From contig OX419759.1 of NCBI GenBank assembly GCA_948567375.1, positions 62,772,593 through 62,836,592 of the forward strand: DNA of 64,000 nt, given 5' to 3'. The notes beneath the pieces were generated by a model. The model did not search any database and was not told the DNA's origin. It worked only from the letters and a program-made list of their open reading frames with translations. Below, in pieces: positions 2,879-61,344 of this stretch. The stretch's first letter is position 1; each line of letters opens with the position of its first letter. The position numbers and the translations under genes were made by a program. Origin of the DNA: Lunularia cruciata (Eukaryota > Streptophyta > Marchantiopsida > Lunulariales > Lunulariaceae).

Positions 2879-3918
2879 TGACGATGAGCCTCTAGAGGTG
2901 ATTGCTTTGACACCTCTGGATACCACACTCATTGCTTGGTAGTATCCAGTAGAGGGGATATGCTTATTGGAGTTGTTTGGTGGGATCAACACCAGACTAA
3001 CTATGGTGTTACAAGCGGGTATCCAAGTACAAAGGTACTTGTATGTAGAGAGAGATGAGACTGCTAGGCGAGTCTCTCTACATCATGTGGCACACTTGGC
3101 CTATTGGTATCCGGAGTTATTACCGATGTCAACAGTTAGAGGTTACCAAAAGGCCCTACTAGGAGACATTTCCTTATTGGGGGCGCATGACCTAGAGAGA
3201 CATGGGCCTATTTACTTGGTGATTTCTGGATGGCCATGTCAGGGACATACATATACAGGTAGAGGATTGGGTCTTCAGGATCCTCATTTTGGTGTGTTTT
3301 GGGAGATGTTATGGATACTATGACATCTCTAGGTTCATCAGTCTGTTTCTCTAGCTTACCTTTTGGAGAATGTTCCTTTGATGGGTGATTCTTGCACTAA
3401 GAGTTGTGGTGAGTACACATCAGGTCCATTCTTGGATGGGACCTGCTGTATTGTTAGATGCATCCAGAGTGGGATCACGGGTTCATCGTCTTTGTCTTTG
3501 GTGGATGAACTTCTTACCCAGAGAGGTTCTACCGAGCGCTTATGATGGGATTCAACGACTTGACCACATCCTTGTTAATGATATCTTGGATGTTGGGCGT
3601 CAGCCTCAAACAGTGGTAGTGGCTGATTGGTCACCTATGGCAGTGGTGAACCTAGTTGGACAACCTAGAGCTGCATTTCCCACACTCATGAGTTTCCCAG
3701 GCTCTCATGCTTTTTGAGAGAGAGGACCTGGACTTGTTTGGGACTCATAGTTACAATAGTTAATGGAGCCTAACGTTGATGAGAGAGAGCGGGTGATGGG
3801 TTTTTGCACCAATATTACCGCTGTTCCAGTAGTGTAAGAGGCATCCAGGCGTAAGGTGTTAGATCAGGCTATGGACCTAAACTGTTTGACCTGGATTGTG
3901 AGCCTTGGCTTGGCCGAG
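2879..3918 (+). pseudogene. captured cytosine-5 DNA methyltransferase domain (DNMT3/DRM-like) inside a gypsy pol
   Basis: The C5-MTase motifs appear in canonical, non-permuted order. The SAM-binding motif I is LLELFGGIN (about 2964). Motif IV is ISGWPCQGHTYTGRG, with the catalytic Cys of PCQ, near 3220. It is followed by GLQDPHFGVFWEML. Motif VI is LLENVP (3360-3377), with the catalytic ENV. A motif VIII-like HR is in VLLDASRVGSRVHRLCLWW (about 3450-3506). A C-terminal motif IX/X-like part has RERVMGFCTN and RRKVLDQAMDL (about 3786-3880). The spacing over some 320 codons and the DASxV...HR...W signature resemble DNMT3/DRM catalytic domains, although the PCQG block also looks Dcm-like. It is inactive here: TAG 2940, TGA 3321, TAG 3330, a frameshift near 3370, TGA 3715 and TAA 3835. 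It lies between protease and RT, and the A2 copy lacks it by deletion. Confidence 0.8.
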
Positions 3919-4458
3919 CAGCAGAGGATGTGCTTGATAGGCATCACCACTCAGACACTTGTGAGTCTTGTGTCTATCGAGACGATTCAGGCACATGCTA
4001 GGGGCGATGGACCGAGTAGACATGGTATTCTTGGGACACATCCAATAGCTACTAGGGAAAGTGGTCTACTTGGAGTCCATCCAGGTGAGCGTGGGCTACT
4101 TGGATTACACCCTTGGTCCACATGGGATGCAATTTGAGGACGTGTGGAGCTTGCAACCAGAGTGGAGGGAGTTTTTCACACAGAGGTTGGGACCTCTAGT
4201 GGTCTAGAGCATGACACTATTGCTCCCAAGGGCCCAGTGTAGCAGTCAGTCAATACGTCTTCCACTCCTACTATAGTTACAGAGGATACTTGGGAGCCAG
4301 ATCTTGGACCCAAGCTTACTGGAGAGGAAAGATGGAGTGTTTGGAGGTTCTTGAGGAGTCACACGAGTTGTTTTGCCCTCAATCTGAAGGATTTGGGTGC
4401 TCTAAAGGGACCTGGTATACGGATTGAGTTGACTAGCGACACACCAATTTTCTGACGT
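3919..4458 (+). other. linker between methyltransferase and RT
   Basis: The frame used by the methyltransferase C-terminal half stays open to 4137 (Gly/His-rich, with repeated short LGxHP units such as LGTHP, LGVHP and LGLHP). It then continues with stops towards the RT, where an FxRPYQY-like lead-in precedes the RT N terminus near 4450. The only recognisable domain is the RT approach at the end. Confidence 0.4.
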
Positions 4459-5700
4459 CCTTATCAATATAGTGATATGGAGAGGACATTGATTCAGAGC
4501 CGGAGTAGTGACCTTTTTAAGGCTGGTTTGGTGGAGATTTCACATGGAGAGTATGCATCAACAACAGTGATGCCAGCCAAGAAGGATATGCATGGCAATT
4601 ATACAAATAGGCGGATGTGTAGAGATTACCATCCTATCAACCGACAGACCAGGGCTGATTGGTATGCCATGCCTACACCGGAGGAGATTTTTGATCCGAT
4701 TGGGCATGCAAAGGTCTTTAGTACTTTGGATCTTTGAGCAGGATATCATCAATTGCCGATCAGGAAGGAGGATAAGTCCAAGACAACATTTTGGGCTATT
4801 GATCCTCATGGCAAAGATGTGTTATATCAATGGAGGTTCTTACTATTTGGTTAAAGAATGCTCTTGTTGAGTTCCAGAGGGTCATGGATAGGATCCTAGT
4901 TGGATTGGATTTCACTCGGTGCTATATTGATGACATTTTGGTTTATAGCACTATTGTGGAGGAGCATGAGAGACAGTTGTTGGAGGTGTTTGAGAGGTTG
5001 AGATCTCATGGACTCAAATTACATCCTGGGAAGTGTAGGTTCTTCCACGAGCAAGTTGAGTATTTGGGTCACACTATCTATCTTGGAGGACTTGGTGTTC
5101 AACAGACCAAGGTGGAGGCTATTGCACGTATTCCTCGGCCTACGGATGTGAGCAGAGTGCGAGCATTCCTTGGGTTGGTGAACTTCTATTGCTGCTATGT
5201 TAGAGGATTTAGTGCCATTGCCAAGGCCTTGATGAAGCTAACCAAGCTTACACAAGAGTGGTGTTGGGGAGATGAGTAAGAGTGTGATTTTGTAGAGCTC
5301 AAGGAGAGGTTGACATCTGCTCCTATTTTGAGGAGACCGATCAGGGGATGACCATTTCAGGTTCACATTGATTGGAGTATGTTGGGGCTTGGAGCGGTGC
5401 TCACCCAGCATGATGATGAGGAGAAGGAGTTTGTGGTGGCATATGCTAGTCGCTCCAACAATTCAGTGGAGGTGAAGTATAGTTCATATGAGGGAGAGTG
5501 CTTGGCAGCAGTTTGGGCAGTAGCACATTTTTGATGTTACCTATTTGGTAACCCCTTCACTCTCATCATTGATCATCAACCGCTGAAGTGGTTGATGGCG
5601 TCTGACAAGCTTTCAAGGAAGCTGCACAATGGGCTCTGATTTTACATGAGTATGATTTCACTGTTGTTCATAGACCTTGAGTGGTGAACCGTGATGCAAT
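4459..5700 (+). pseudogene. family A reverse transcriptase and RNase H (decayed)
   Basis: The RT includes RMCRDYHPINRQT, VFSTLDL-stop-AGYHQLPI, a broken LLFG motif near 4845 where the frame shifts, and the catalytic CYIDDILVYS at about 4920-4950 (xDD box). FLGLVNFY follows in the connection segment. RNase H follows with [16 protein letters not shown] (first Asp), [11 protein letters not shown] (Glu) and IIDHQPLKWL. TGA 4738 replaces the Arg usually seen before AGYHQ. Further stops lie in the RNase H part. It is clearly Ty3/gypsy and clearly dead. Confidence 0.85.
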
Positions 5701-5739
5701 ATGGGTTGAGTAGAAACCCATGTCCCAGCCAACAGGATC

Positions 5740-7013
5740 AGACCGGAGCACGTTGGCATGGTGAGACAGATGAGGAGATGGTGCCAAGTTGGCATGCATT
5801 GGCCTTTTTGTGTATATTTGCAGAGGCTTTGGTGGTATCTCTCTCAACGCATATAGGAGGAGTTATTGAGGTCACAGATCCAAAGAGTGAAGATATTGGT
5901 ACAGTTCAGCAAGACATTCATGATGATGTCTTAGTGATGGACTATCTTCACACTGGTGTTGTGGGTGGCACAGTTGGGGCCAAGGAGAGAGACCATGTTC
6001 TTCAGCGAGCCAGACGGTTCAGATTGGAGGGTAGACACCTTTTGCGTGTATGGGAGGATGGTAGAGTGCGAGTAGTACCACTTCCATCTCAGAGACCACA
6101 ATTGGTCCGTCATGCTCATGAGGAGTTAGGACATTTTGGAGTAAAGCATACATATAGCTTACTCTAGAGTCATTATTGGTGGCATAGTATGCAGACCGGG
6201 GTACAGCAGTTTGTTGCCAGATGTGTGGTTTATGACCGAGTTAGAGTATCATTCAATGCTCCTACGCCACAGTTACACCCATTACCTATCATGGGATTGG
6301 GTTACCATTGGAGTTTGGACTTTGCCGGACCTTTACTATTGACTATGAGACATCATCGATATGTTTTGGTGATGGTGGAGCACTTCTCCAAGTGGATTGA
6401 GTTGGTGGCACTTCTTGACAAGTCTAGTGAAGGGACAACTTACTCGTTCTTGGATCAAGTTCTTAATCATTTTGGTGCACCAGCTAAGGTTTTGACTGAT
6501 CAGGGTACAAAGTTCTTGGGGGAGTTTCAAGTCTTGTGTGACAAGGCTTTGATTGATCACCGTACTACCTCCCGAGATCACCCTAAGGTAGATGGCTTAG
6601 CAAAGAAAGTGGTTCAGACGGTGAAGAGAGGATTGCAAAAGTATGGTTTGTAGAGAGGCCACTTGGGAGATTGGGATCTCTAGTTACCTTGGTTGGCCAT
6701 GGGCTATCGGTTCAGCCGGCAAGCCTCTTTAGCATCCTTCTCTCCATACTTTCTACTCTATAGACGAGATCCAGATTTACTTGGAGCCATTTGTCGAGAT
6801 GCTACTGTAGTTTTGGACTTGGATGACCCCAATGTATGGATGAGTGCAAGTTCTCAGCGGGTAGAGATCTTTCGGAGAGTGATGCCAATGGTCTTTGAGA
6901 ACTTGGCGATTGCTCAGCATAGAGGTACTTTATGCTATGCTACCATTCAAGGAGGAGGTTATAGACCCTCGATCCGTTGATTTCATCCAGGAAACTATGT
7001 ATATCTATAGTAG
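5740..7013 (+). pseudogene. family A integrase (decayed)
   Basis: The N-terminal HHCC zinc-binding part is visible (HAHEELGHFG, then YWW and FVARCVVYDR, the last with one Cys lost). The catalytic core has Asp in YHWSLDFAGPL and Asp in VLTDQGTKFLGEF. The third catalytic residue, expected as Glu in the DGLAE block, reads Lys (VDGLAKKVVQTVKRG, about 6590-6625), consistent with a GAG to AAG change. Stops include TAG at 6166, 6651 and 6680, TGA 6978 and TAG 7008 and 7011. A PHD-containing tail follows in place of a chromodomain. Confidence 0.82.
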
Positions 7014-7055
7014 ACAACACCAACAACACTTGATGTTTCTACAAGCCGCACTATC

Positions 7056-7355
7056 TTGAGAGTGCGTGAGGTTTTGCCATATGGAGTCCTTGTGTTAGAA
7101 GGACGTGATGGTATTGTTTGGAAGGATCATGTGCGCAATTGTGCGCCATGCCACCTCCTAAACATTGATGGTACTATGGACCCAAGCTTGGCACTTGTAC
7201 GTGTAGGCTTGATGTGTATGTTATGTGGCTCTTCTGGTGGAGTTGCTACTATGTTAGTGTGTGATAGTTGTTCAAGAGGATGGCATATGGCATGTATGAC
7301 TCCTTCCTTCACGGTGGTTCCTCAGGGACAATGGTTATGTCCTAGATGTACTTGA
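7056..7355 (+). pseudogene. integrase C-terminal tail with PHD finger
   Basis: An open 99-codon piece ends the pol of A1. An integrase-tail-like stretch (LRVREVLPYGVLVLEGRDG, with VWKDHVRN) is followed by a complete PHD zinc finger at about 7215-7352. Its ligands are C54, C57, C69, C72, H77, C80, C95 and C98, with the typical W two residues before the last CxxC. PHD fingers usually bind the H3 tail and read K4 methylation. Here it stands where chromoviruses carry a chromodomain, so a role in choosing integration sites is a reasonable inference. It is labelled pseudogene because the upstream pol is broken; the finger itself is intact. A2 has the same finger at 20357-20674. Confidence 0.85.
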
Positions 7356-7524
7356 CCTATAGCTAGTTCATTCTTTATATGGTATAGATTGCAAACAGGC
7401 GACTAACAATGGGGCTTTATAGCACCCGACCTCCTGATCTTTGCCCATTAGAGGGTATACCATATACTTAGAGTAGATGGCTATCTGGAGTTAGAGGGGC
7501 CTAACCGCCAGCTAGGGGGGCGAT
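7356..7524 (+). other. family A 3' untranslated region and polypurine tract
   Basis: This is non-coding sequence between the pol stop and the LTR. It ends in a purine run, gctaggggggcg at 7511-7522, directly before the LTR start TGTGGCAC, as expected of a plus-strand primer. A2 has the matching run at 20188-20200 on the minus strand. Confidence 0.7.
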
Positions 7525-8083
7525 TGTGGCACTTTAGAGTCTATGTATGACTTATGTGTGAGTTGTGCTCCTATAGTGTATGATGTTGACAGCGATGTAT
7601 GTTGTGTAACAATGTATATATGCACAACAACTGTCACACCATTTGTAGTATTGCATCTAGATTGCTTGGACACTAGAGTCCCAATGATAGTAGTTAGAGT
7701 TATTTCAGTAGTATCTTAGAGACTACTTTTTGACAATCAAATTTCATGTTCGGGGTACTGACTTCATGGTGGGGGCCCACTGTCACTTTGCACCATTTGC
7801 ACCGTCGAGTGTGCCGTCAGTAGGACCGTTAGGGTTTCAGAGCTAGCTTGAGTCCAGGGGGCATAGTATCAAAGTGAGCTCCAGAGAGCTCATTTCTTTG
7901 ATGTTGAACCTTTGAGTTCTTGGCTATGGTGGACAGAGGCCATCTAGCATCACTTGGATTCTCTATGCTTGAGTGAGTGTGGCTTGACTGTAATTAGTGC
8001 CCAGTTGTTGGCAATTTATAGAGTGATAGATCAAGTACTGATATGTGTTGAGTTGAGTTGAGAGTGTTAAGCAATATGATTAT
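7525..8083 (+). repeat. family A 3' LTR of copy A1
   Basis: About 559 bp, beginning TGTGGCACTTTAGAGTC after the polypurine tract. It aligns along its length with the A2 3' LTR (20187-20026 plus 14377-13977, minus strand) and with the A2 5' LTR (39717-39270, minus strand). The A2 5' LTR ends in TTTGATTACA, whereas this LTR ends in TGATTAT and is followed at once by a second copy of the first ~107 bp of the LTR. Confidence 0.8.
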
Positions 8084-8190
8084 TGTGGCACTTTAGAGTC
8101 TATGTATGACTTATGTGTGAGTTGTGCTCCTATAGTGTATGATGTTGGCAGTGATGTATGTTGTGTAGTGATGTATATACGCACGACAGC
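8084..8190 (+). repeat. R1 unit: repeated start of the family A LTR
   Basis: Starts TGTGGCACTTTAGAGTC and follows the first ~107 bases of the LTR at 7525. After it the sequence changes to unrelated DNA of element C. An inverted copy closes the other side of element C at 13864-13976. Confidence 0.7.
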
Positions 8191-15049: not shown

Positions 15050-16342
15050 TCAAGAGGAAAAGGAAGAGGGGTTAGGAATAAAGGGTTTCAACTTGGAAAC
15101 ATGAAAGACAGGATGGATATGCATGTGACAAGGCAAGGCAAGTTGATAAGCAACAGGAGAGACAATGTGGGTGATATTAAAGGGTCTTATCCAATTAGGA
15201 GTAAGTTTATGAACTTGGGTATCAAGTGGAAGAGGGAGGTTACTAGTGGATAGCATGACTTTATCGCCAACTTCAAAGGTGAGATCACGACGATGGTGGT
15301 CTACATATTGTTTTTGGTGATTCTGAGCAACAAGGAGGTGAGACTTGGCTTGTTGGAGAGATTGGGATATAGTGGTCAAGAATGTGGAAGTATGAGGAAC
15401 CTAAGAGGGAGGGGGAGCAAGAAGAGAATCTGGAACAAGCGGATCTTGGCCAAAATTGAGAAAGAAGGGAGAAAACCCTGTGCTTGCATGTTTGGAATTG
15501 TTGTAGGCAAATTTTGCAGCTGCAAGACATTCATCCCAGTTGGTATGGTGGACATTGACAAAGGCCCGCAACACATCCTCTAATGTACAATTGGCGCGTT
15601 AAGTTTGTCCATCAGTTTGAGGATGATAGGCCGTGGACAAAGCAAGCTTGGTGCCGAGTATCTGGAAGAGTGCTTGCCAAAACTTCTCGGTAAATTGAGG
15701 ATCACGGTCGGGGATGAGTACATGTGGCATCCTATGATGCTTGAAGATGTTGTCGAAGTAGATTTGCATTAAGGTTGGAGCATCCATAGTATCAAAGGTT
15801 GGTGCCAAGTGGATTTGCTTACTAAGCTTATCCACAAACACCACGATTGTGGTGTGTCCTTGTTTTGTCTTTGGCAAGGGTGTGATGAGATCCAAGCTCA
15901 CATGCTCCCAATGAGTGGATGGAATGGCGAGTGGTTGAAGGAGTCCACTCGACTTCTGGTTGCTGGCCTTGTTCCGTTGGCAACTCTCACATGATAGGAC
16001 AAAGTCTTGAACATCTCGTGTCATGTTGGGCCACCACCATTGGCATTGGAGGGTGCCCAAGGTCTTGTCCACTCCCATGTGACCAGCTATTGGTAAATCA
16101 TGGGCTTCTTGAAGGCGTACAAGTCGAAGATCCCCTTTGACTGGAACATAGATCTGGTTTGCATGGAATAAAAGGTCTTCCTTGAAGGAGAAGGTGTTGT
16201 ACTCCTTGTCACGTGCTGTTAGACAACCGTGTAGCATATGGAAGAAGAGATCTTGTTGTAGAGCTGATTGAAACTCATTATGGACCTTAGGGTCAATAGA
16301 CACCATTGTAATTGCCGCCATGATGAGAAGAAGATCCTTCAA
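15050..16342 (-). pseudogene. B1 integrase
   Basis: The frame 16342-15599 reads the zinc-binding segment (HDLPIAGHMGVDKTL, WWWPNM, CESCQRNKA). It then reads the DDE core: Asp in HVSLDLITPLP, Asp in IPDRDPQFTEKF (usually SDRD), and AYHPQTDGQT, which leads to the catalytic Glu. A stop follows TDGQT at 15600. The C-terminal half continues from 15379 (FEVGDKVMLSTSNLPLP, FNITHIVSPVAYQLALP). Confidence 0.85.
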
Positions 16343-16359
16343 ATCAGGTCATCGTGATA

Positions 16360-17868
16360 GAGCATCAGGGATGACATGGAACCGACCTGGTTTGTACTCA
16401 AGTTTGATATCAAACAATTGGAGTTGCTCTTCCCATCGATGATGCCGACTCTTCATGTGCTCCAAGTGTAAGGTCTGCAACAATGGCTTGTGATCAATTC
16501 AAATGATCACTTGTTTACTAAGAGATAATGCCTCCATACCTTGGTGGCATATACCATTGCAAGTTGTTCCTGATCTTGAGTAGAGTAATTTCTTTCAGTT
16601 GTATTTAGTCGGCAAGACACAAAGGCAATAGGATGTAGTCCATCTGGAAATTCTTGTTGCAACACAGCTCCAATTGCAAAGTTAGAAGCATCAAAATCAA
16701 CCACACAAGGTAGTTGAGGATCATATGGTTGAAGAATAGGTCTTGAAGACACCATATGCTTTAACTTCTGGAATGCTTCTTCATGCTTGGTGGTCCATTG
16801 GAAGCTCAAGTTCTTTCCCAAGAGGTCAGTCAATGGTGCAGCCATGTGAGCATAATAGTGGATGAACCGTTGATAAAAATTGGCCAATCCATTGAATGCT
16901 TGTACTTCGGTAGCATCCTTTAGGGTAGGCCAATCAGTAATGGCCTTGATCTTCTTTTCTTCCATTTTGATCCCCTCTGATGAGATCTTATGACCCAAGA
17001 AGGTAACCTCCTTTTGCCAAAAAGCACACTTTGACTTCTTGCAGTAAAATTTCCACTGTTGTAGTCGTCTTAGGACTTCTGGCACATGATTCATGTGTTC
17101 TGCCTCTGTCCTACTATAGATTAGGATATCATCTAAGAACACTACCACGGACTGATTCAATAGTCCCTCCAACACCCAATGCATCTGATCCATGAAGACC
17201 GCTGGAGCATTAGTGAGTCTAAAAGGTAGAACTCTCTACTCAAAATGTCCATACCTTGTGCAAAAGGCAGTCTTTTGCACGTCCTCTCCTTCAATAGGAA
17301 TTTGCCAATAGCCGCTACAAAGATCTAGCTTGGAAAAGTAGCGTGCTCCACTTAGTTGATCAAGCAGGTCATTGATCCGAGGCAAGGGATATGCATTCTT
17401 CACGGTTTGCTTATTGAATCCACGGTAATCAATACAGAAACAAAGTCCTCCATCCTTCTTTGGAACAAATAGTACCGATGCTCCCCAAGGAGAGGTACTA
17501 TGTCATATGAAATCCTTCTCCAAAAACTCTATAAGTGTTGTTTGCAACCCCTCCAACTCCTTTGGTGGGAGCCGATAGATTGGTCTACTCACTGGAGTAC
17601 TCCTTGGTAATAACTTGATCTTGAAGGGCATACCTCGATCGGAGGGTAATCCCTTTGGCAGATCATCTGGAAATACATCTGCAAACTCTTGAACTATCCA
17701 ATCAACCATTGCTTGATGCGGCAGTTGGCCTTCCTCAGATTGTTCTTGTGCAATCGGCTTGATCCACACCGCGAATATAGACTTTTCTTGCTCCAAAGCT
17801 TGCTCTATGGTTGCTTCATTAACAAACTTCCCTTCTAGGGACTCATCTCTGTTCCCAGCTTGCTCCAT
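16360..17868 (-). pseudogene. B1 reverse transcriptase and RNase H
   Basis: The RT begins about 17740 with [17 protein letters not shown] and PIYRLPPKELEGLQ. The catalytic box is FLDDILIYSR near 17145-17115, then VTFLGHKISSEGIKM and FNGLANFYQRFIHYYAHMA. RNase H has CVVDFDASNFAIGAVLQQ and NYSTQDQEQLAMVYATKVW. A TAG at 17236-17238 stands inside HFE-stop-RVLPF, a site that is normally aromatic. The same stop occurs in B2. Confidence 0.87.
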
Positions 17869-24905: not shown

Positions 24906-26172
24906 AAGGGTTTCAACTTGGAAACATGAAAGACAGGATGGATATGCATGTGACAAGGCAAGGCAAGGCAAGTCGATAAGCAACAGGAGAGACAATGTGG
25001 GTGAAATCAAAGGGTCCTATCCAATTAGAGGCAAGTTTACGAACTTGGGTATCAAGTGGGAGAGGAAGGTTACTAGAGGATAGCATGACTTTATCACCAG
25101 CTGCAAAGGTGAGATCACGACAATGGTGGTCCGCATATTGTTTTTGGCAATTCTAAGCAACAAGGAGGTGAGGCTTGGCTTGTTGGAGAGATTGGGATAT
25201 AGTGGTCAAGAATGTGGAAGTATGAGGAACCTAAGATGGAGGGGGAGCAAGAAGAGAACCTGGAACAAGCGGATCTTGGCCAAAATTGAGAAAGAAGGGA
25301 GAAAACCCAGTGCTTGCCTATTTGGAATTGTTGTAGGCAAATTCTGCAGCTGCAAAACATTCATCCCAATTGGTATGGTGGACATTGACAAAGGCCCGTA
25401 ACATATCCTCCAATGTACAATTTGCGTGTTCGGTTTGTCCATCAGTTTGAGGATGATAGGCCGTGGACAAAGCAAGCTTGGTGTTGAGTATCTAGAAGAG
25501 TGCTTGCCAAAACCTCCCGATAAATCAAGGATCACGGTCGGAGATGAGTACACATGGCATCCCATGATGCTTGAAGACGTTGTCAAAGTAGATTTGCGCT
25601 AAGGTTGGAGCATCCACAGTATCACAGGTTGGTGCCAAGTGGATTTGCTTACTAAGCTTATCCACAAACACCACAATGGCGGTGTGTCCTTGTTTTGTCT
25701 TTGGCAAGGATGTGATGAGATCCAAGCTCACATGCTCCCAACGAGCTGATGGAATAGCAAGCGGTTGAAGGAGTCCACCCGGCTTTTGGTTGCTGGCCTT
25801 GTTACATTGGTAGCTCTCACACAATTGGACAAATTCTCGAACATCCTGTGTCATGTTGGGCCACCACCATTGACATTGGAGGGTACCCAAGGTCTTGTCC
25901 ACACCCATGTGACCAGCGATGGGTAAATCATGGGCTTCTTGGAGGCGCACAAGTTGAAGATCACCTTTGACTGGAACATAGATCTGGTCCGCATGGAATA
26001 GAAGGCCTTCCTTGAAGGAGAAGGTGTTATACTCCTTATCACCTGTTGTTAGCCGACCATGTACCATTTGGAAGAAGGGATCTTGCTGTAGAGCTAACCA
26101 AAACTCGTTATGAATCTTGGGATCAATTGACACCATTGTAATTGCTGCCGTGATGAGAGGAAGAGACTTCAA
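24906..26172 (-). pseudogene. B2 integrase
   Basis: The frame 26172-25525 reads HDLPIAGHMGVDKTLG, WWWPNMTQDV, CESYQCNKA (one Cys of the CxxC lost), HVSLDLITSLP and LISDRDP. The catalytic SDRD is intact here, unlike B1. A stop follows at about 25527, then the C-terminal half continues in other frames towards the chromodomain. Confidence 0.83.
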
Positions 26173-27673
26173 ATCAGATCGTCGTGATAGAGCATTAGGG
26201 AGATATGGAACCGACCTGGTTTGTACTCAAGTTTGATATCAAACAATTGGAGTTGCTCTTCCCATTGATGATGTCGACTCTTCATGTGCTCTAGGTGTAA
26301 GGTCTGCAACAATGGCTTGTGATCAGTTTGCATGATCACTTGTTTCCTAAGAGATAATGCCTCCATACCTTGCTGGCATATACCATTGCAAGTTGTTCCC
26401 GATCTCAAGTAGAGTAATTTCTTTCAGCTGTATTTAGTCGGCGAGACACAAAGGCAATAGGATGTAGTCCATTTGGAAATTCTTGTTGCAACACAACTCC
26501 AATTGCAAAGTTAGAAGCATCAAAATCAACCACACAAGGTAGTTGAGGATCATATGGTTGAAGAATAGGTCTTGAAGACACCATATGCTTTAACTTCTGG
26601 AATGCTTCTTCATGCTTGGTGGTCCATTGGAAGCTCAAGTTCTTTCCCAAGAGGTCAGTCAATGGTGCAGCCATGTGAGCATAATAGTGGATGAACCGTT
26701 GATAAAAATTGGCCAATCCATTGAATGCTTGTACTTCGGTAGCATCCTTTAGGGTAGGCCAATCAGTAATGGCCTTGATCTTCTTTTCTTCCATTTTGAT
26801 CCCCTCTGATGAGATCTTATGACCCAAGAAGGTAACCTCCTTTTGCCAAAAAGCACACTTTGACTTCTTGCAATAAAATTTCCACTGTTGTAGTCGTCTT
26901 AGGACTTCTGGCACATGATTCATGTGTTCTGCCTCTGTCCTACTATAGATTAAGATATCATCTAAGAACACTACCATGGACTGATTCAATAGTCCCTCCA
27001 ACACCCAATGCATCTGATCTATGAAGACCGTTGGAGCATTAGTGAGTCTAAAAGGTAGAACTCTCTACTCAAAATGTCCATACCTTGTGCGAAAGGCAGT
27101 CTTTTGCACGTCCTCTCCTTCAATAGGAATTTGCCAATAGCTGCTACGAAGATCTAGCTTGGAAAAGTAGCGTGCTCCACTTAACTGATCAAGCAGGTCA
27201 TTGATCCGAGGCAAGGGATATGCATTCCTAACGGTTTGCTTATTGAGCCCACGGTAATCAATACAGAAACAAAGTCCTCCATCCTTCTTTGGAACAAATA
27301 GTACCGGTGCTCTCCATGGAGATGTACTATGTCGTATGAAATCCTTGAAACGTATGAAACTCTGTAAGTGTTGTTCAAAACTCGATGGTCTGCTCACTAG
27401 AGTACTCCTTGGCAATAACTTGATCTTGAAGGGCATACCTTGATCAGAGGGTAATCCCTTTGGCTGATCATCCGGAAACACATCTGCAAACTCTTGAACT
27501 ATCCAATCAACCATTGCTTGATGCGGCACCTGGCTCTCCTCAGATTTTTCTTGTGCAATTGGCTTGATCCACACCACAAATACAAACTTATCTTCCTCCA
27601 AAGCTTGCTCTATGGCTGCTTCATTAACAAACTTCCCTTCTAGGGACTCATCTCTCTTCCAAGCTTGCTCCAT
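26173..27673 (-). pseudogene. B2 reverse transcriptase and RNase H
   Basis: Reads [15 protein letters not shown], then an altered stretch where the B1 sequence PIYRLPPKELEGLQ is replaced by [33 protein letters not shown] and [15 protein letters not shown] follow, then HFE-TAG-RVLPF (stop at 27065-27067, shared with B1), FLDDILIYSR and RNase H CVVDFDASNFAIGVVLQQ. A frame break near 26405 separates off the last RNase H part (LRKQVIMQTDHKPLLQTL). Confidence 0.87.
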
Positions 27674-34961: not shown

Positions 34962-35075
34962 GGATACAAATCTTGGAAGTGGAAGAATACAAAGCCAAAT
35001 TTGAAACTGGGTGTCCACGCAATATGAATGTCTGCATCGAGAGAACAATGGGAAGAGAGAGCTCAAAGATGAGCA

Positions 35076-36794
35076 GTGCAACGTGAAGAAGATGAGCGTT
35101 TGAAAGCCCCATACACTTCAAACAAAATCAAACGAGAAGAGTTGGACTTTCAACTTCTCCACGAAGTACAAGCAGCCCTGCGCAAACTTGACCAAAAGAG
35201 ACGCAAAGGAGGTTGGCAAGGCTACTTTTCATCCCCGTCTTCCAAGAACAAGAAAGACTTGAGCGAGCAAACATACGCGCTACGACCCAGTACACCGACT
35301 TCTCCTAAAGCTATAAAGGAAGTTGATTTCATTAAGAAGTTCATTCAAAAAAAGATAGCTCAAACACTTACGGAAGAAGAGTGTCAGCATCTGGTACAAA
35401 AAATTCCTTGGTTATCCCGAAGAAGATTCAAAGATCAGACTGAAGTTATGGACTCTCTTACTTCTGATCGGGTTGAAGTCGACAACACCAGAGAAGAAGA
35501 AATTGTCGAAGAAGACCCCAATTTGAACTTGACAAATTGGAACCCATGGGCAGACAACATGGCGTCCATACCAAGTAGCTCTGCGGTTCTTGTAAGTTCA
35601 AACTTACCACACCCAAATCCACCACACCAAATGATGTCTTCGTTACCCGTGACCCGACATGCTTATCAAAAGTACAAAAGTATAGAGCAAGATGAAGATC
35701 CTGACAAATTCATTAAGGAATTTGAAGTCATTTCCTTTGCCAAGGAACATGACTCTGCGGATCGACTACGGATTTTTCCAAGTCTGCTCCGAAAGAAGGC
35801 TCGGAGCTGGTATACTCATGTAACACAGAAGGGATTTACCCCAATGGACTGGGTAGACTTACGGAATGGCTTCCTAGAACAATTTTGGGAAGTGGATTAT
35901 GATACAAGTGTCTTCGCAGCACTCAATGATTTGGATCGAGGAAAGAAGGTAAAATTGAGAGATTACTCTCAACGGTTCATGGCCTTATTGAACCGAGTTC
36001 CAAAGCAATCCGGGGTGGTGGGGTATTCCGATGCCCAAGCCATTACCTGGTTTCTTGGCGGAATTTCACCGGAGATTCAAATCATTGCCAGGGAGAGAAA
36101 TGTAACCTCTGTGGACAAAGTCCTCAATTATGTTGCCCGATATGAGGCGGCTCATTCTAACTTGTCCAGTAATCAAAGAAATTGTGAGAAGAAAGGCAAA
36201 AAGCCAAGACGAAGAGCTTCACGTAGTACTTCTCCTTCTTTGGAAGAATCCTCCACTTCTTCTAGTTCTTCTTTGGAATCCGACGAAGAACCCGAGCCGA
36301 GAAAAATACAAAGACGTAGGGGAAAGAAGCCCGTAACACCGCCAGTAAAGAATATATCCAAGGCGGATCAAAAGTTGGAAACTATGATTAAAGAGTTTGC
36401 GGATTTTAAAATTCAGATGATTGGGGCAAAGGACCAAAGAAAACCTTTGTCATTTGGACGACCAAATGTATGGTGCACTGCGTGTGGTAAATCCGGCCAT
36501 GCTAATACGGAGTGTTTAACTCGCACAGCATTTCTAGTGCAACAAATAGATTGGGTTCTTGGATGGGATCAAGGCAAAGAAGAAGATACGGTATATCAAA
36601 CCCAATATACACAGCCTCCATCAAGCACATCATATCAAGGTCCCATGTTTGGACCACGGGAGTACAATCCTACTGTTCCTCCACAAAGACCCCCGATGGG
36701 TGGTCAGAATAGACCTCAAAATGTGGCACCGGGTGCTTGTTACAATTGTGGCTCAATGGAACATTGGTCTCCAAATTGTCCGGAGCCAAGATGA
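35076..36794 (+). CDS. element D gag polyprotein (open, 572 codons)
   Basis: The longest intact frame in the transposon part. A basic N terminus is followed by a retrotransposon gag domain (about residues 200-360: YKSIEQDEDPDKFIKEFEV, LRKKARSWYTHV, FLEQFWEVDYDTSVFAALND, VKLRDYSQRFMALLNRVP, AITWFLGGISPEIQ). A Ser/Arg/Glu-rich hinge comes next, then knuckles CTACGKSGHANTEC and CYNCGSMEHWSPNC (both C-x2-C-x4-H-x4-C). It ends at a single TGA, beyond which the same frame continues with a third knuckle, so the stop is probably a recent mutation. The start is the first ATG after an in-frame stop. Confidence 0.85.
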   Translation: MQREEDERLKAPYTSNKIKREELDFQLLHEVQAALRKLDQKRRKGGWQGYFSSPSSKNKKDLSEQTYALRPSTPTSPKAIKEVDFIKKFIQKKIAQTLTEEECQHLVQKIPWLSRRRFKDQTEVMDSLTSDRVEVDNTREEEIVEEDPNLNLTNWNPWADNMASIPSSSAVLVSSNLPHPNPPHQMMSSLPVTRHAYQKYKSIEQDEDPDKFIKEFEVISFAKEHDSADRLRIFPSLLRKKARSWYTHVTQKGFTPMDWVDLRNGFLEQFWEVDYDTSVFAALNDLDRGKKVKLRDYSQRFMALLNRVPKQSGVVGYSDAQAITWFLGGISPEIQIIARERNVTSVDKVLNYVARYEAAHSNLSSNQRNCEKKGKKPRRRASRSTSPSLEESSTSSSSSLESDEEPEPRKIQRRRGKKPVTPPVKNISKADQKLETMIKEFADFKIQMIGAKDQRKPLSFGRPNVWCTACGKSGHANTECLTRTAFLVQQIDWVLGWDQGKEEDTVYQTQYTQPPSSTSYQGPMFGPREYNPTVPPQRPPMGGQNRPQNVAPGACYNCGSMEHWSPNCPEPR

Positions 36795-59000: not shown

Positions 59001-59373
59001 GAGCGTTGAAATTGTGCAGAAGAAAGCTACTCGGAGCTTACAATTTGATGTGGGTAATTGCATCCTGCACTTTTGGAGATGATAAGAAGGATAGGTTGCA
59101 AATGCACCTTGCACATGCTTACTGGGTTTCTCATCGAGTCGCTTGGTGATGAAGCGGAAGCTTAGACGAGCAGATAGTCCCGCCTTCAGGACGGGTTTTG
59201 TTCGGCTGGAGAATTGTCGAGAGTTTGATTTGATTTCGCAAGGGAGAGAGAGAGAGAGATAGAGATGCGCCATGATTGTTCGGAGATGACAAAGTTGTGT
59301 GTGCATGTCCATGTTTACTATCAGTTTTAGTTGTCGTGTACGTTATTGGTGGGAATTCAAGTAAGCTAGCAAA
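56022..59373. other. intergenic region between U2AF65 and the NADH dehydrogenase gene
   Basis: No coding frame here resembles a known family and none shows a convincing exon pattern. The first few hundred bases should hold the U2AF65 3' UTR, and the last few hundred the promoter and 5' UTR of the next gene. No RNA gene recognised. Confidence 0.5.
59247..59266 (+). promoter_or_regulatory. GA-repeat tract upstream of the NADH dehydrogenase start
   Basis: A purine run of GA dinucleotides about 110 bp before the ATG. GA tracts in plant promoters and 5' UTRs bind BPC/GAGA-type factors; whether it acts here is an inference. Small upstream ATGs follow it. Confidence 0.4.
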
Positions 59374-61344
59374 ATGCGGGCAGGCCGCTTTGCGAGTTCT
59401 CTGTTACGTCGTGCGTGCGATCACGTTTCCCATGCGTCCAATTCGTACAAGCAATTGGGTGCTCCAAAGCAATGCAGCCAATTACCGATAGTCGGTCAAT
59501 CGTCTCGAGGGTTTTTCACATCTCGAGCAATTGTAGAGGAAATCCCTCGACAGCAAAATTCTGCGCTCAGATCCACCTACTTTTGGAGGAGGAGCCACTC
59601 GTACAGACCAATTCTGTTAGCAGCGGCTGCAACAGGTTGTTTGGGGGGATTGTTTGTGATTGTCGCAGATTCAAGCACTGGCAACGAGCCAGGGAGTTTG
59701 ACCCCGAAAAAGAAGCTTGCCGCAGATCCAAGAACTGGCAAAGAGCCAGAGCGTTTGACCCCGAAAAAGAAGATTGTCGTCCTCGGGACAGGATGGGGAG
59801 GTATGAGTTTCCTGAAAGGGATCGACACAAATTTGTATGAAGTCCAGGTGATATCACCGCGGAACTACTTCGTGTTCACTCCACTAATTCCCAGCGTCAC
59901 AAATGGGACCGTGGAGGCCCGTAGCATAGCGGAGCCTATCCGGAGAATGTGCAGGAATAAAAAGAAGGACGTGAAACTCTACGAAGCGACATGCTTGGAA
60001 ATTGATCCCAACAGCAAGAGGCTTCTGTGCCGAGATGAATCACAAGTTACTGTGAAGGGAAAGGAGGATTTCATCGTCGACTATGATTATCTGGTTATTG
60101 CAGTGGGGGCTCTTACCAATACCTTCGGTACTCCCGGGGTGGAGAAGTACTGTCAATTCCTTAAGGAGTTAGAGGATGCCACGAAAATTAGACAGACTGT
60201 TGTCGACTGCTTTGAGACCGCGTGCTTGCCTCACCTCACCGATGAGGACAGGAAGAAGATTCTCAGCTTCGTCATTGTGGGCGGCGGTCCAACCGGGGTG
60301 GAGTTCGCTGCAGAGCTCCATGATTTGGTCCACCAAGATATGAGTAAACTGTACCCGTCCGTGCAAGAGCATGTCTCCGTGACAGTGATTGAGGCCGTCG
60401 GTCATATACTAAATACATTTGATGCACGAATTCAAGCGTACGCTGAGCAGAAGTTTCAGCGAGATGGCCTGCACTTGAAAACAAATTGTCAAGTGAAGAA
60501 AGTTAACGAAGGAGAATTGATGTACTTCGATAAGAAAGCCAACGAGGAGGTTACTCTACCTTTTGGTCTTGCAGTGTGGTCCACAGGGTTGGGGACCCGA
60601 CCCTTAGTGAAAGATCTGATGCAGCAGATTGGACAAAGTGACAGAAGAGTCTTGGCTACTGATGAGTGGCTCAGAGTCAAGGGATGTGATTCCACTTATG
60701 CGCTTGGGGACTGCGCAACGGTGGAGCAGCGCAAGATTGTTGAAGACATTAACGTTCTGTTCAACTTGGCAGATGCAGACAAGTCAGGAAAATTGACTGT
60801 AGACGAGTTCCAACAGATGCTGGAGCTTGTGCGGGAGAGGTATCCTCAAATTGACACCTATATGAAGAAGAAACAGCTGAAGGATTTGAGGGCTCTCATC
60901 AGACATGCAGAGGCTAACAATGAGACGGATGAAGTGGAGGTCGATCTTGATAGATTCAAGATGGCAGTGGAGCAGATCGACTCGCAGATGACAAAGTTCC
61001 CTGCAACTGCTCAGGTTGCAGCGCAACAGGGAGCTTACGTAGCACTTTGCTTTAATCATCTTCCTTTTGAGTCTGAAGCAGCAGAAGGACCTCCACGCGT
61101 AAGAGGTGAGGGTTTTCATAGATTCAAACCTTTTCGGTATAAACATCTGGGACAATTTGCACCTTTGGGAGGAGAGCAAACTGCAGCCCAGCTACCCGGA
61201 GATTGGATCTCCATAGGTAGAAGCACTCAGTGGCTCTGGTACTCGGTGTATGCAAGCAAACAAGTGAGCTGGAGGACAAGGGCCCTCGTGCTGTACGACT
61301 GGACCAAGAGATTGTTCTTTGGTAGGGATTCCAGTCGCATGTAA
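59374..61344 (+). CDS. NDB: external alternative NAD(P)H dehydrogenase with EF-hand (NDB type), intronless
   Basis: This type II NAD(P)H:quinone oxidoreductase oxidises cytosolic NAD(P)H at the outer face of the inner mitochondrial membrane without pumping protons. It has 656 residues, longer than the usual 570-590. An Arg-rich presequence-like N terminus and a hydrophobic stretch (about 79-98) come first. The FAD-binding GTGWGG is at 138-143 and the NAD(P)H-binding GGGPTG at 303-308. The strand after the latter ends VTVIEAV; Glu there is typical of NADH rather than NADPH use. A canonical EF-hand loop DADKSGKLTVDE is at 467-478, so calcium control is expected. The C terminus YDWTKRLFFGRDSSRM is the family end. 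Residues 98-135 are a 19-residue tandem duplication. The single exon and the first ATG of the long frame fix the start. Confidence 0.94.
   Translation: MRAGRFASSLLRRACDHVSHASNSYKQLGAPKQCSQLPIVGQSSRGFFTSRAIVEEIPRQQNSALRSTYFWRRSHSYRPILLAAAATGCLGGLFVIVADSSTGNEPGSLTPKKKLAADPRTGKEPERLTPKKKIVVLGTGWGGMSFLKGIDTNLYEVQVISPRNYFVFTPLIPSVTNGTVEARSIAEPIRRMCRNKKKDVKLYEATCLEIDPNSKRLLCRDESQVTVKGKEDFIVDYDYLVIAVGALTNTFGTPGVEKYCQFLKELEDATKIRQTVVDCFETACLPHLTDEDRKKILSFVIVGGGPTGVEFAAELHDLVHQDMSKLYPSVQEHVSVTVIEAVGHILNTFDARIQAYAEQKFQRDGLHLKTNCQVKKVNEGELMYFDKKANEEVTLPFGLAVWSTGLGTRPLVKDLMQQIGQSDRRVLATDEWLRVKGCDSTYALGDCATVEQRKIVEDINVLFNLADADKSGKLTVDEFQQMLELVRERYPQIDTYMKKKQLKDLRALIRHAEANNETDEVEVDLDRFKMAVEQIDSQMTKFPATAQVAAQQGAYVALCFNHLPFESEAAEGPPRVRGEGFHRFKPFRYKHLGQFAPLGGEQTAAQLPGDWISIGRSTQWLWYSVYASKQVSWRTRALVLYDWTKRLFFGRDSSRM

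Follow-up and report, generated by a model that had tools for sequence, protein, structure and literature searches.

Retrotransposons that carry a DNA methyltransferase (MT) were described in charophytes and dinoflagellates in 2018, as the original prediction for the present locus had stated, and the main text of that paper agrees with this (PMC5890265). The closest described system is KnitGypsy-Dnmt3 of Klebsormidium nitens, in which a DNMT3-type MT lies in a gypsy Pol and the repeats follow an A-coding-B-A-B arrangement that the main text calls DIRS-like (PMC5890265). Retrotransposon DNMT3s have been restated for streptophytes and dinoflagellates in the text of PMC12344493. The genome of the liverwort Lunularia cruciata is about twice the size of others, mainly via Ty3/Gypsy bursts, and the word 'methyltransferase' is absent from the open text of the paper that reports this (PMC9985172).

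DNA methylation is a main plant defence against transposons, yet the liverwort transposon family analysed here carries a methylating enzyme whose catalytic residues are kept. We describe this family from one of its copies, located in a 64,000-nucleotide stretch of the L. cruciata genome (contig OX419759.1, positions 62,772,593 to 62,836,592, forward strand), which is referred to as the window.

Results

The window contains a DNMT3-type C5-cytosine MT domain at about 2946-3891 (+), inside a Ty3/gypsy element and between its protease (PR) and reverse transcriptase (RT). The original prediction had read the C5-MT motifs I, IV, VI and VIII-X in order between these two regions, and this reading was confirmed. 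The copy is broken. Its domain is split over two frames, with two stops in the first piece and four in the second; WPCQG and LENV are legible despite the decay, and by its sequence the copy is dead. A tblastn comparison with the MT of an intact paralogue, L006, gave 84.9% amino acid identity over 2946-3401 and 82.9% over 3400-3891 (E about 1e-145), and the class of the domain is taken from intact copies. Because the window copy is broken, its pieces score poorly on their own: fragment 2943-3323 gave E=0.13 for PF00145 and E=0.0038 for NCBIfam dcm, both below cut-off. The 623-aa open frame of L006 passed the PF00145 cut-off of 22 bits, scoring 34.9 bits (E=1.5e-8). The DNA_methylase assignment thus holds on the intact copy, with the window fragment itself below threshold, and the sequence matches exclude chance similarity as the source of the window domain.

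All parts of the element lie on the plus strand. A gag-region fragment (388-936) has no Pfam match and sits in the same place as in the other copies with a complete domain set. The PR region (2107-2424) is 87.7% identical to that of L006, on which Asp_protease_2 was sub-threshold (E=0.14). The stretch between PR and MT (2422-2945) aligned to L006 in three tblastn pieces, and that between MT and RT (3892-4239) is 84.5% identical to L006. These are followed by RT (4456-5276; RVT_1 E=2.4e-15 on 4803-5279), by an RNase H region (5352-5531) that is 93-97% identical to most other copies and corresponds to RT_RNaseH in related proteins, and by an integrase (IN; 5688-6977) with an H2C2 zinc finger (Integrase_H2C2, E=1.2e-4), an rve DDE core (E=5.3e-12) and a C-terminal part. 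A PHD finger (7215-7349) ends Pol, and a polypurine tract, AGGGGGG (7514-7520), which is identical in the 13 other copies shown there, directly precedes the first B repeat.

A probable second copy, interrupted by other DNA, lies on the minus strand at 13876-39718. It has parts from gag to PHD and no MT match, and we read these parts as a single copy. The window also contains RT, RNase H and IN pieces of other gypsy elements at 15599-17235 and 25525-27064 (both minus strand), whose RTs are near-identical to each other in the RT tree. A 573-aa open frame at 35073-36794 (+) with Retrotrans_gag and a zinc knuckle is another retrotransposon gag. A 659-aa open frame at 59365-61344 (+) matches type II NAD(P)H dehydrogenase and has an EF-hand stretch (Pyr_redox_2, 4e-48; NDH2_C, 1e-15); it is plausibly a host gene in one open frame.

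We searched the L. cruciata genome (565,766,749 bases). Queried with the MT domain, it gave 13,055 candidates, of which 126 were scored, at E<1e-198 and with 313 or 314 of 314 residues covered; these are best-scoring rows, biased to intact copies. The Pfam family gave 123 scored of 2161, host genes among them, and the totals represent neither copy numbers nor upper bounds. The host genes include a DNMT3 (L001) and a DRM, recognized by its rearranged order (L002). No internal stop was present in 77 of the 126 best MT matches; the stops found were 52 TAG, 12 TGA and 1 TAA. Among 19 copies picked by their MT match, 16 had every queried domain from gag to PHD in the same order, the exceptions being L016 (no gag and PR matches), L028 (no gag) and L025 (no IN end and PHD). 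Because these 19 copies had been chosen by MT, a second sample was drawn by RT: 20 of the best 150 RT rows (33,592 loose candidates) were taken by hand down the list, and their MT slot alone was examined. The MT was present in the expected slot in 19 of the 20, and in the remaining copy, L085, the region that precedes the MT stood at that place. The proposal that the MT belongs to a Ty3/gypsy family is therefore borne out by many copies with the domain in the same slot.

The host DNMT3 occupies a locus of its own, and its coding pieces fall in different frames. L004 (about 1501-1665) contains a further DNMT3-like coding piece of the host, whose match includes a stop and which may represent a second host DNMT3 gene or a pseudogene. 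In viral contigs, three stretches matched a pattern, and none of them encodes a relative.

To place the enzyme, the L006 MT was compared with the PDB, and DNMT3A came first (E=1.1e-10). A 19-row MT profile, built from 18 hand-chosen members of 112 related proteins plus L006 (the structure alignment), matched DNMT3A at E=1e-21. The plant entries 4onj and 4onq, which we take to be DRM-type, and DRM2 by name scored 2e-9 to 2.5e-7, HhaI 3.6e-6, and the tRNA enzyme DNMT2 was weakly similar (E=0.0012 to 0.0021); no entry named DNMT1 was among the 54 profile matches at E up to 0.01. An AlphaFold model of the element MT (pLDDT 75, pTM 0.79, residues 213-268 mostly of low confidence) recovered DNMT3 entries among the 50 matches listed in a fold search (best E=2e-15, query TM 0.59, rmsd 8.4 Å). 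Judged by profile and predicted fold, the nearest solved relatives of the element MT are DNMT3A/B.

Motifs I to X of the element MT stand in unrearranged order, without the DRM rearrangement. All 30 element MTs in the tree set (see below) have the catalytic Cys of motif IV, and all 29 rows that reach motif VI have the Glu of ENV; in the RT-chosen copies the Cys is kept in 19 of 19 and the Glu in 18 of 18 covering the site. Motif X reads GQAMDLN in liverwort element MTs and GN(S/T) in DNMT3s, a difference that we treat, on the sequences, as divergence within the DNMT3 class. The original prediction had pointed to both a DNMT3/DRM and a Dcm-like relationship, and only the DNMT3 part of it stood. 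A DRM-like class was ruled out by the scores and the unrearranged motifs, and a Dcm-like class by the scores and the motif order; the PCQ block is no sign of Dcm, since the plant DNMT3s compared have PCQ too. In several rows of the kind with the MT between RNase H and IN, motif IV reads WECQD, compared with WPCQ elsewhere, so that a Glu replaces the Pro before the catalytic Cys.

Self-comparison of the window and its upstream DNA gave the layout A(449)-coding-B(107)-A-B. B1 (107 bp) occupies 7523-7629 and is followed by the B-A junction at 7630-7633, a 2-nt spacer plus TG as judged from other copies, which reads ACTG in the window. A2 (449 bp, 7634-8082) is 89.8% identical to A1, located upstream of the window (L009:3332-3779), and B2 (107 bp, 8082-8188) forms the 3' end of the element, as indicated by self-comparison and by the other copies. 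With full ends, an element reads TG-A1-coding-B1-GC-TG-A2-B2-CA, having A at one end and B-A-B at the other and not one LTR at both.

Both ends were located in 13 of the 19 fetched copies, a set that does not include the window copy. All 13 had the outer ends TG, ahead of A1, and CA, where B2 ends, and 11 of them had an exact 4-bp target duplication; the control, in which 5' flanks were compared with the 3' flanks of other copies, gave 0 of 156. The two copies without the duplication, L017 and L023, have the most diverged A1/A2 pairs (91% and 89%, against 93-99% in the remaining 12 copies measured). In the window copy TA stands where the others have TG, and a target duplication is missing. The B1-A2 junction, GACA-GC-TGTC, was exact in 9 of the 14 other copies shown and had one-base variants in L013, L014 and L022; L012 differs, and L028 is cut off after B1. 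A2 and B2 join at the identical base in 14 of 14. From its sequence, the B1-A2 junction corresponds to the two outer ends brought together across a 2-nt spacer. No canonical primer binding site, which would start with TGGYR, was seen by eye after A1, and a tRNA scan of L006 gave no match. The Pfam-scanned pieces, which cover part of the reading frames, had no tyrosine recombinase match and an rve integrase instead. The flanks of L015 and L027 (L053:1063-1701; L046) contain further A or B repeats, suggesting clustered or tandem insertions.

The PHD finger lies downstream of the integrase core (PF00628, E=2e-10, residues 68-112 of 7014-7355), and no chromodomain match was found by Pfam in this region after the integrase (7014-7355). 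The original prediction had mentioned neither this finger nor the split-repeat ends. With L019 as query, the nearest solved PHD fingers were those of CHD4, PHF12, KMT2D, KMT2C, KDM5, DPF3, PHF21A and AIRE. Many of these fingers recognize an H3 tail whose K4 is unmodified. A PHD finger likewise stands at the end of the Marchantia relative P0028, and it ends six of eight scanned related polyproteins (P0110 just below cut-off); the remaining sequences, P0058 and P0070, are fragmentary and break off ahead of the PHD position. In a metagenome MT-IN-PHD polyprotein, P0102, residues 1191-1239 matched a Tudor domain of PTM/DIR17-like type (6e-8), which might serve as another chromatin reader.

Protein searches showed this MT to occur also in Calypogeia fissa, Marchantia polymorpha, Sphagnum and metagenome proteins. 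It lies as well in the Pol of a gypsy element from a chlorophyte, Monoraphidium neglectum (P0070). No named K. nitens protein was among the matches listed. The MT occupies one of two slots. The first, PR-MT-RT, is that of Marchantia P0022 and P0079, with MT-RT seen in P0050, P0110 and P0111; the second, RNaseH-MT-IN, is that of P0102, P0103, P0107, P0108 and P0109, with RNaseH-MT seen in P0104 and P0070.

An MT tree was built from 57 hand-chosen rows: 30 element MTs (27 of the 112 related proteins and three own copies), nine plant and 16 other DNMT3-type rows (of 120 listed, 511 found), the host L001 and E. coli Dcm. In this tree, which has long branches and no sure root, the 30 element MTs form one side of a branch (100/100, length 1.14), apart from the 10 plant DNMT3s, the 16 other DNMT3-type rows and Dcm. 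A group of ten RNaseH-MT-IN rows has support of 97/98 and includes P0056, known as an MT alone. The host's own DNMT3 clusters with MpDNMT3b and Riccia (100/99), a placement that indicates a marchantioid liverwort. Recent capture from a liverwort DNMT3 was rejected, with p-AU 3e-46 for liverwort element MTs and liverwort DNMT3s as one clade. As for a deeper source, neither a grouping of the elements with plant DNMT3s (p-AU 0.29) nor one with the other DNMT3-type rows (p-AU 0.35) was rejected. A possible clade of MT-bearing elements was weakly supported (47/47 in the RT tree and 69/89 in the IN tree). One element MT inside the element clade, P0031, was deposited as Candidatus Obscuribacterales bacterium, and may be misbinned eukaryotic DNA.

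The MT of L019 is 64-74% identical to those of five liverwort relatives, while identity falls to 52-56% in the piece ahead of it and to 36% in the piece behind. Its RT parts share 70-81% with P0079, P0022 and P0101 and 50-59% with P0106; RNase H shares 62-83%, the IN parts 43-83% and the PHD finger 81% (one relative). Against the Sphagnum proteins P0101 and P0016, the MT shares 48% and 59%, respectively. Because its identity across liverworts exceeds that of its flanks, these comparisons argue that the MT has been maintained between species, less strictly than RT. Within the genome, the dN/dS of the MT was 0.40, compared with 0.48 and 0.83 in shifted frames, and gave no clear signal of selection; the other domains scattered from 0.16 (an RT part) to 0.93 (another RT part), with 0.64 for the IN core. 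For the MT of KnitGypsy-Dnmt3, the main text of PMC5890265 gives a Ka/Ks below 0.2, as against the 0.40 within the Lunularia genome.

Private C>T changes per site amounted to 0.0190 in CG, 0.0180 in CHG and 0.0045 in CHH context, the first two about four times the third, in a count that omits 35 of 294 changes with unclear context. The pattern is consistent with methylation by host enzymes. The CpG observed/expected ratio was 0.41 in the element, 0.12, 0.12, 0.33 and 0.39 in four other gypsy stretches and 0.64-0.82 at two host gene loci. Since the element is not below the other gypsy stretches, CpG depletion was rejected as a mark of self-methylation, and there is no specific mark of this kind.

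Discussion

The identity and architecture of the element are close to certain: it represents a Ty3/gypsy family with Pol in the order PR-MT-RT-RNaseH-IN-PHD, a DNMT3-type MT and split repeats. The MT is probably enzymatically active in some copies. We propose that it would travel with RT and the integrase and methylate de novo the cDNA of its own element, ahead of insertion or during it, and that a new copy would arrive looking like resident methylated DNA. The PHD finger would steer the integrase complex to chromatin, a function that chromodomains are thought to have in chromoviruses. The repeat layout would arise if the DDE integrase cut a circle with two LTRs (LTR = B+A) open at the B-A junction and the 2-nt spacer were lost. 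For this insertion route the chances appear even, and for self-methylation of cDNA as the selected role of the MT they are slightly worse than even. As a whole, the explanation that combines the architecture, self-methylation and circle opening is the one that we favour by a little over even chances. Symbiodinium retrotransposon DNMT3s offer a precedent, as they methylate CG de novo in yeast; against it, the K. nitens gypsy MT produced no methylation there, a result that the main text calls inconclusive, human DNMT3B having given none either (PMC5890265). The element may transpose without the MT.

The MT and the PHD finger might act instead on chromatin at or near the insertion site, silencing the new copy or its surroundings and lowering the cost to the host. 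Their presence in one Pol fits this reading, as does the C>T excess at CG and CHG, by which copies look methylated after insertion; however, host MET1 and CMT enzymes make CG and CHG methylation, which is expected anyway. A similar idea is discussed in the main text of de Mendoza et al. (PMC5890265), and we consider it unlikely for this family, though the strongest of the alternatives. Less likely again is that the MT serves without catalysis or on the RNA side, for instance by binding the genomic RNA or methylating it. RNA methylation has been raised for LINE elements (PMC5890265, main text) and motif X is altered (GQ versus GN), but the nearest class is DNMT3, similarity to the tRNA enzyme is weak, and the catalytic residues are kept.

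Slightly more doubtful still is that the MT at present serves no function and, as a hitch-hiker, is decaying in old copies. Many copies are indeed broken: stops are absent from only 7 of the 19 MT stretches in the RT-chosen set and from 8 of the 17 domain copies; the dN/dS within the genome is uninformative, and the probable second copy in the window has no MT match. However, the MT is conserved between liverworts above its flanks, most of the best genome matches are stop-free, and the sampled copies retain the Cys and Glu. That a host gene landed once, by chance, in one gypsy copy, or that the assembly is at fault, would fit the sub-threshold score of the window fragment alone, but is refuted by the 126 scored copies, the shared slot in 19 of 20 and the separate host DNMT3 locus.

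Beyond the favoured explanation, a broader and rather improbable scenario may be put forward tentatively. The elements would form an ancient green-lineage gypsy clade with one old MT acquisition and a PHD reader, in which the MT moved between the PR/RT and RNaseH/IN slots and the DDE integrase opens a circle-type junction inside the LTR, a route between those of LTR and DIRS elements; one family would have joined the gypsy-driven doubling of the Lunularia genome.

A DNMT3 in gypsy Pol with A-coding-B-A-B repeats is already published for K. nitens, as the main text of PMC5890265 describes. In the open-licence PMC texts searched, without supplements, no description of land-plant elements, a PHD partner, a chlorophyte relative or target duplications was found. 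Apparently new, then, are the land-plant hosts (Lunularia cruciata, Marchantia, Calypogeia and Sphagnum), the chlorophyte relative, the PHD finger and the target duplications. The single element-MT clade in the sampled tree and the rejection of recent descent from a liverwort DNMT3 also appear to be new. Split-repeat ends together with a target duplication pose a concrete puzzle for how such elements replicate and insert. Marchantia has established genetics, and the relatives found there make the question of 2018, what a retrotransposon gains from a DNMT, testable in a land plant.

With conventional LTR retrotransposons the element shares TG..CA ends and a short target duplication, but not identical terminal LTRs. 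Chromoviruses are Ty3/gypsy elements with a chromatin-reading module after the integrase; the Lunularia element has such a reader in the same place, with a PHD finger for the chromodomain, plus the MT. DIRS, PAT and Ngaro elements have split direct repeats in common with it, but use a tyrosine recombinase and make no target duplication, whereas the Lunularia element has an rve integrase, TG..CA ends and the 4-bp duplication (11 of 13). Plant DNMT3s (MpDNMT3a/b and the host's own) share the DNMT3-type catalytic domain with PCQ and ENV; host-type DNMT3 genes carry PF11926, which was not seen in the element MTs.

SymbioDIRS-Dnmt3 and SymbioLINE-Dnmt of Symbiodinium are also DNMT-bearing retrotransposons, and the DIRS type shares the A-B-A-B layout (PMC5890265, main text). 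They are tyrosine-recombinase or LINE elements of a dinoflagellate, unlike the Lunularia element with its rve (DDE) integrase and 4-bp duplications. The PHD finger and target duplications are present in the Lunularia element, and neither 'PHD' nor 'target site' occurs in the main text of PMC5890265. KnitGypsy-Dnmt3, likened here by its published description, differs in its host, which is an alga; the present family lives in a liverwort, its relatives coming from a chlorophyte and from further bryophytes. Both elements have the gypsy domain set, a DNMT3-type MT within Pol with unrearranged motifs, an intronless structure and the A-coding-B-A-B layout (PMC5890265, main text).
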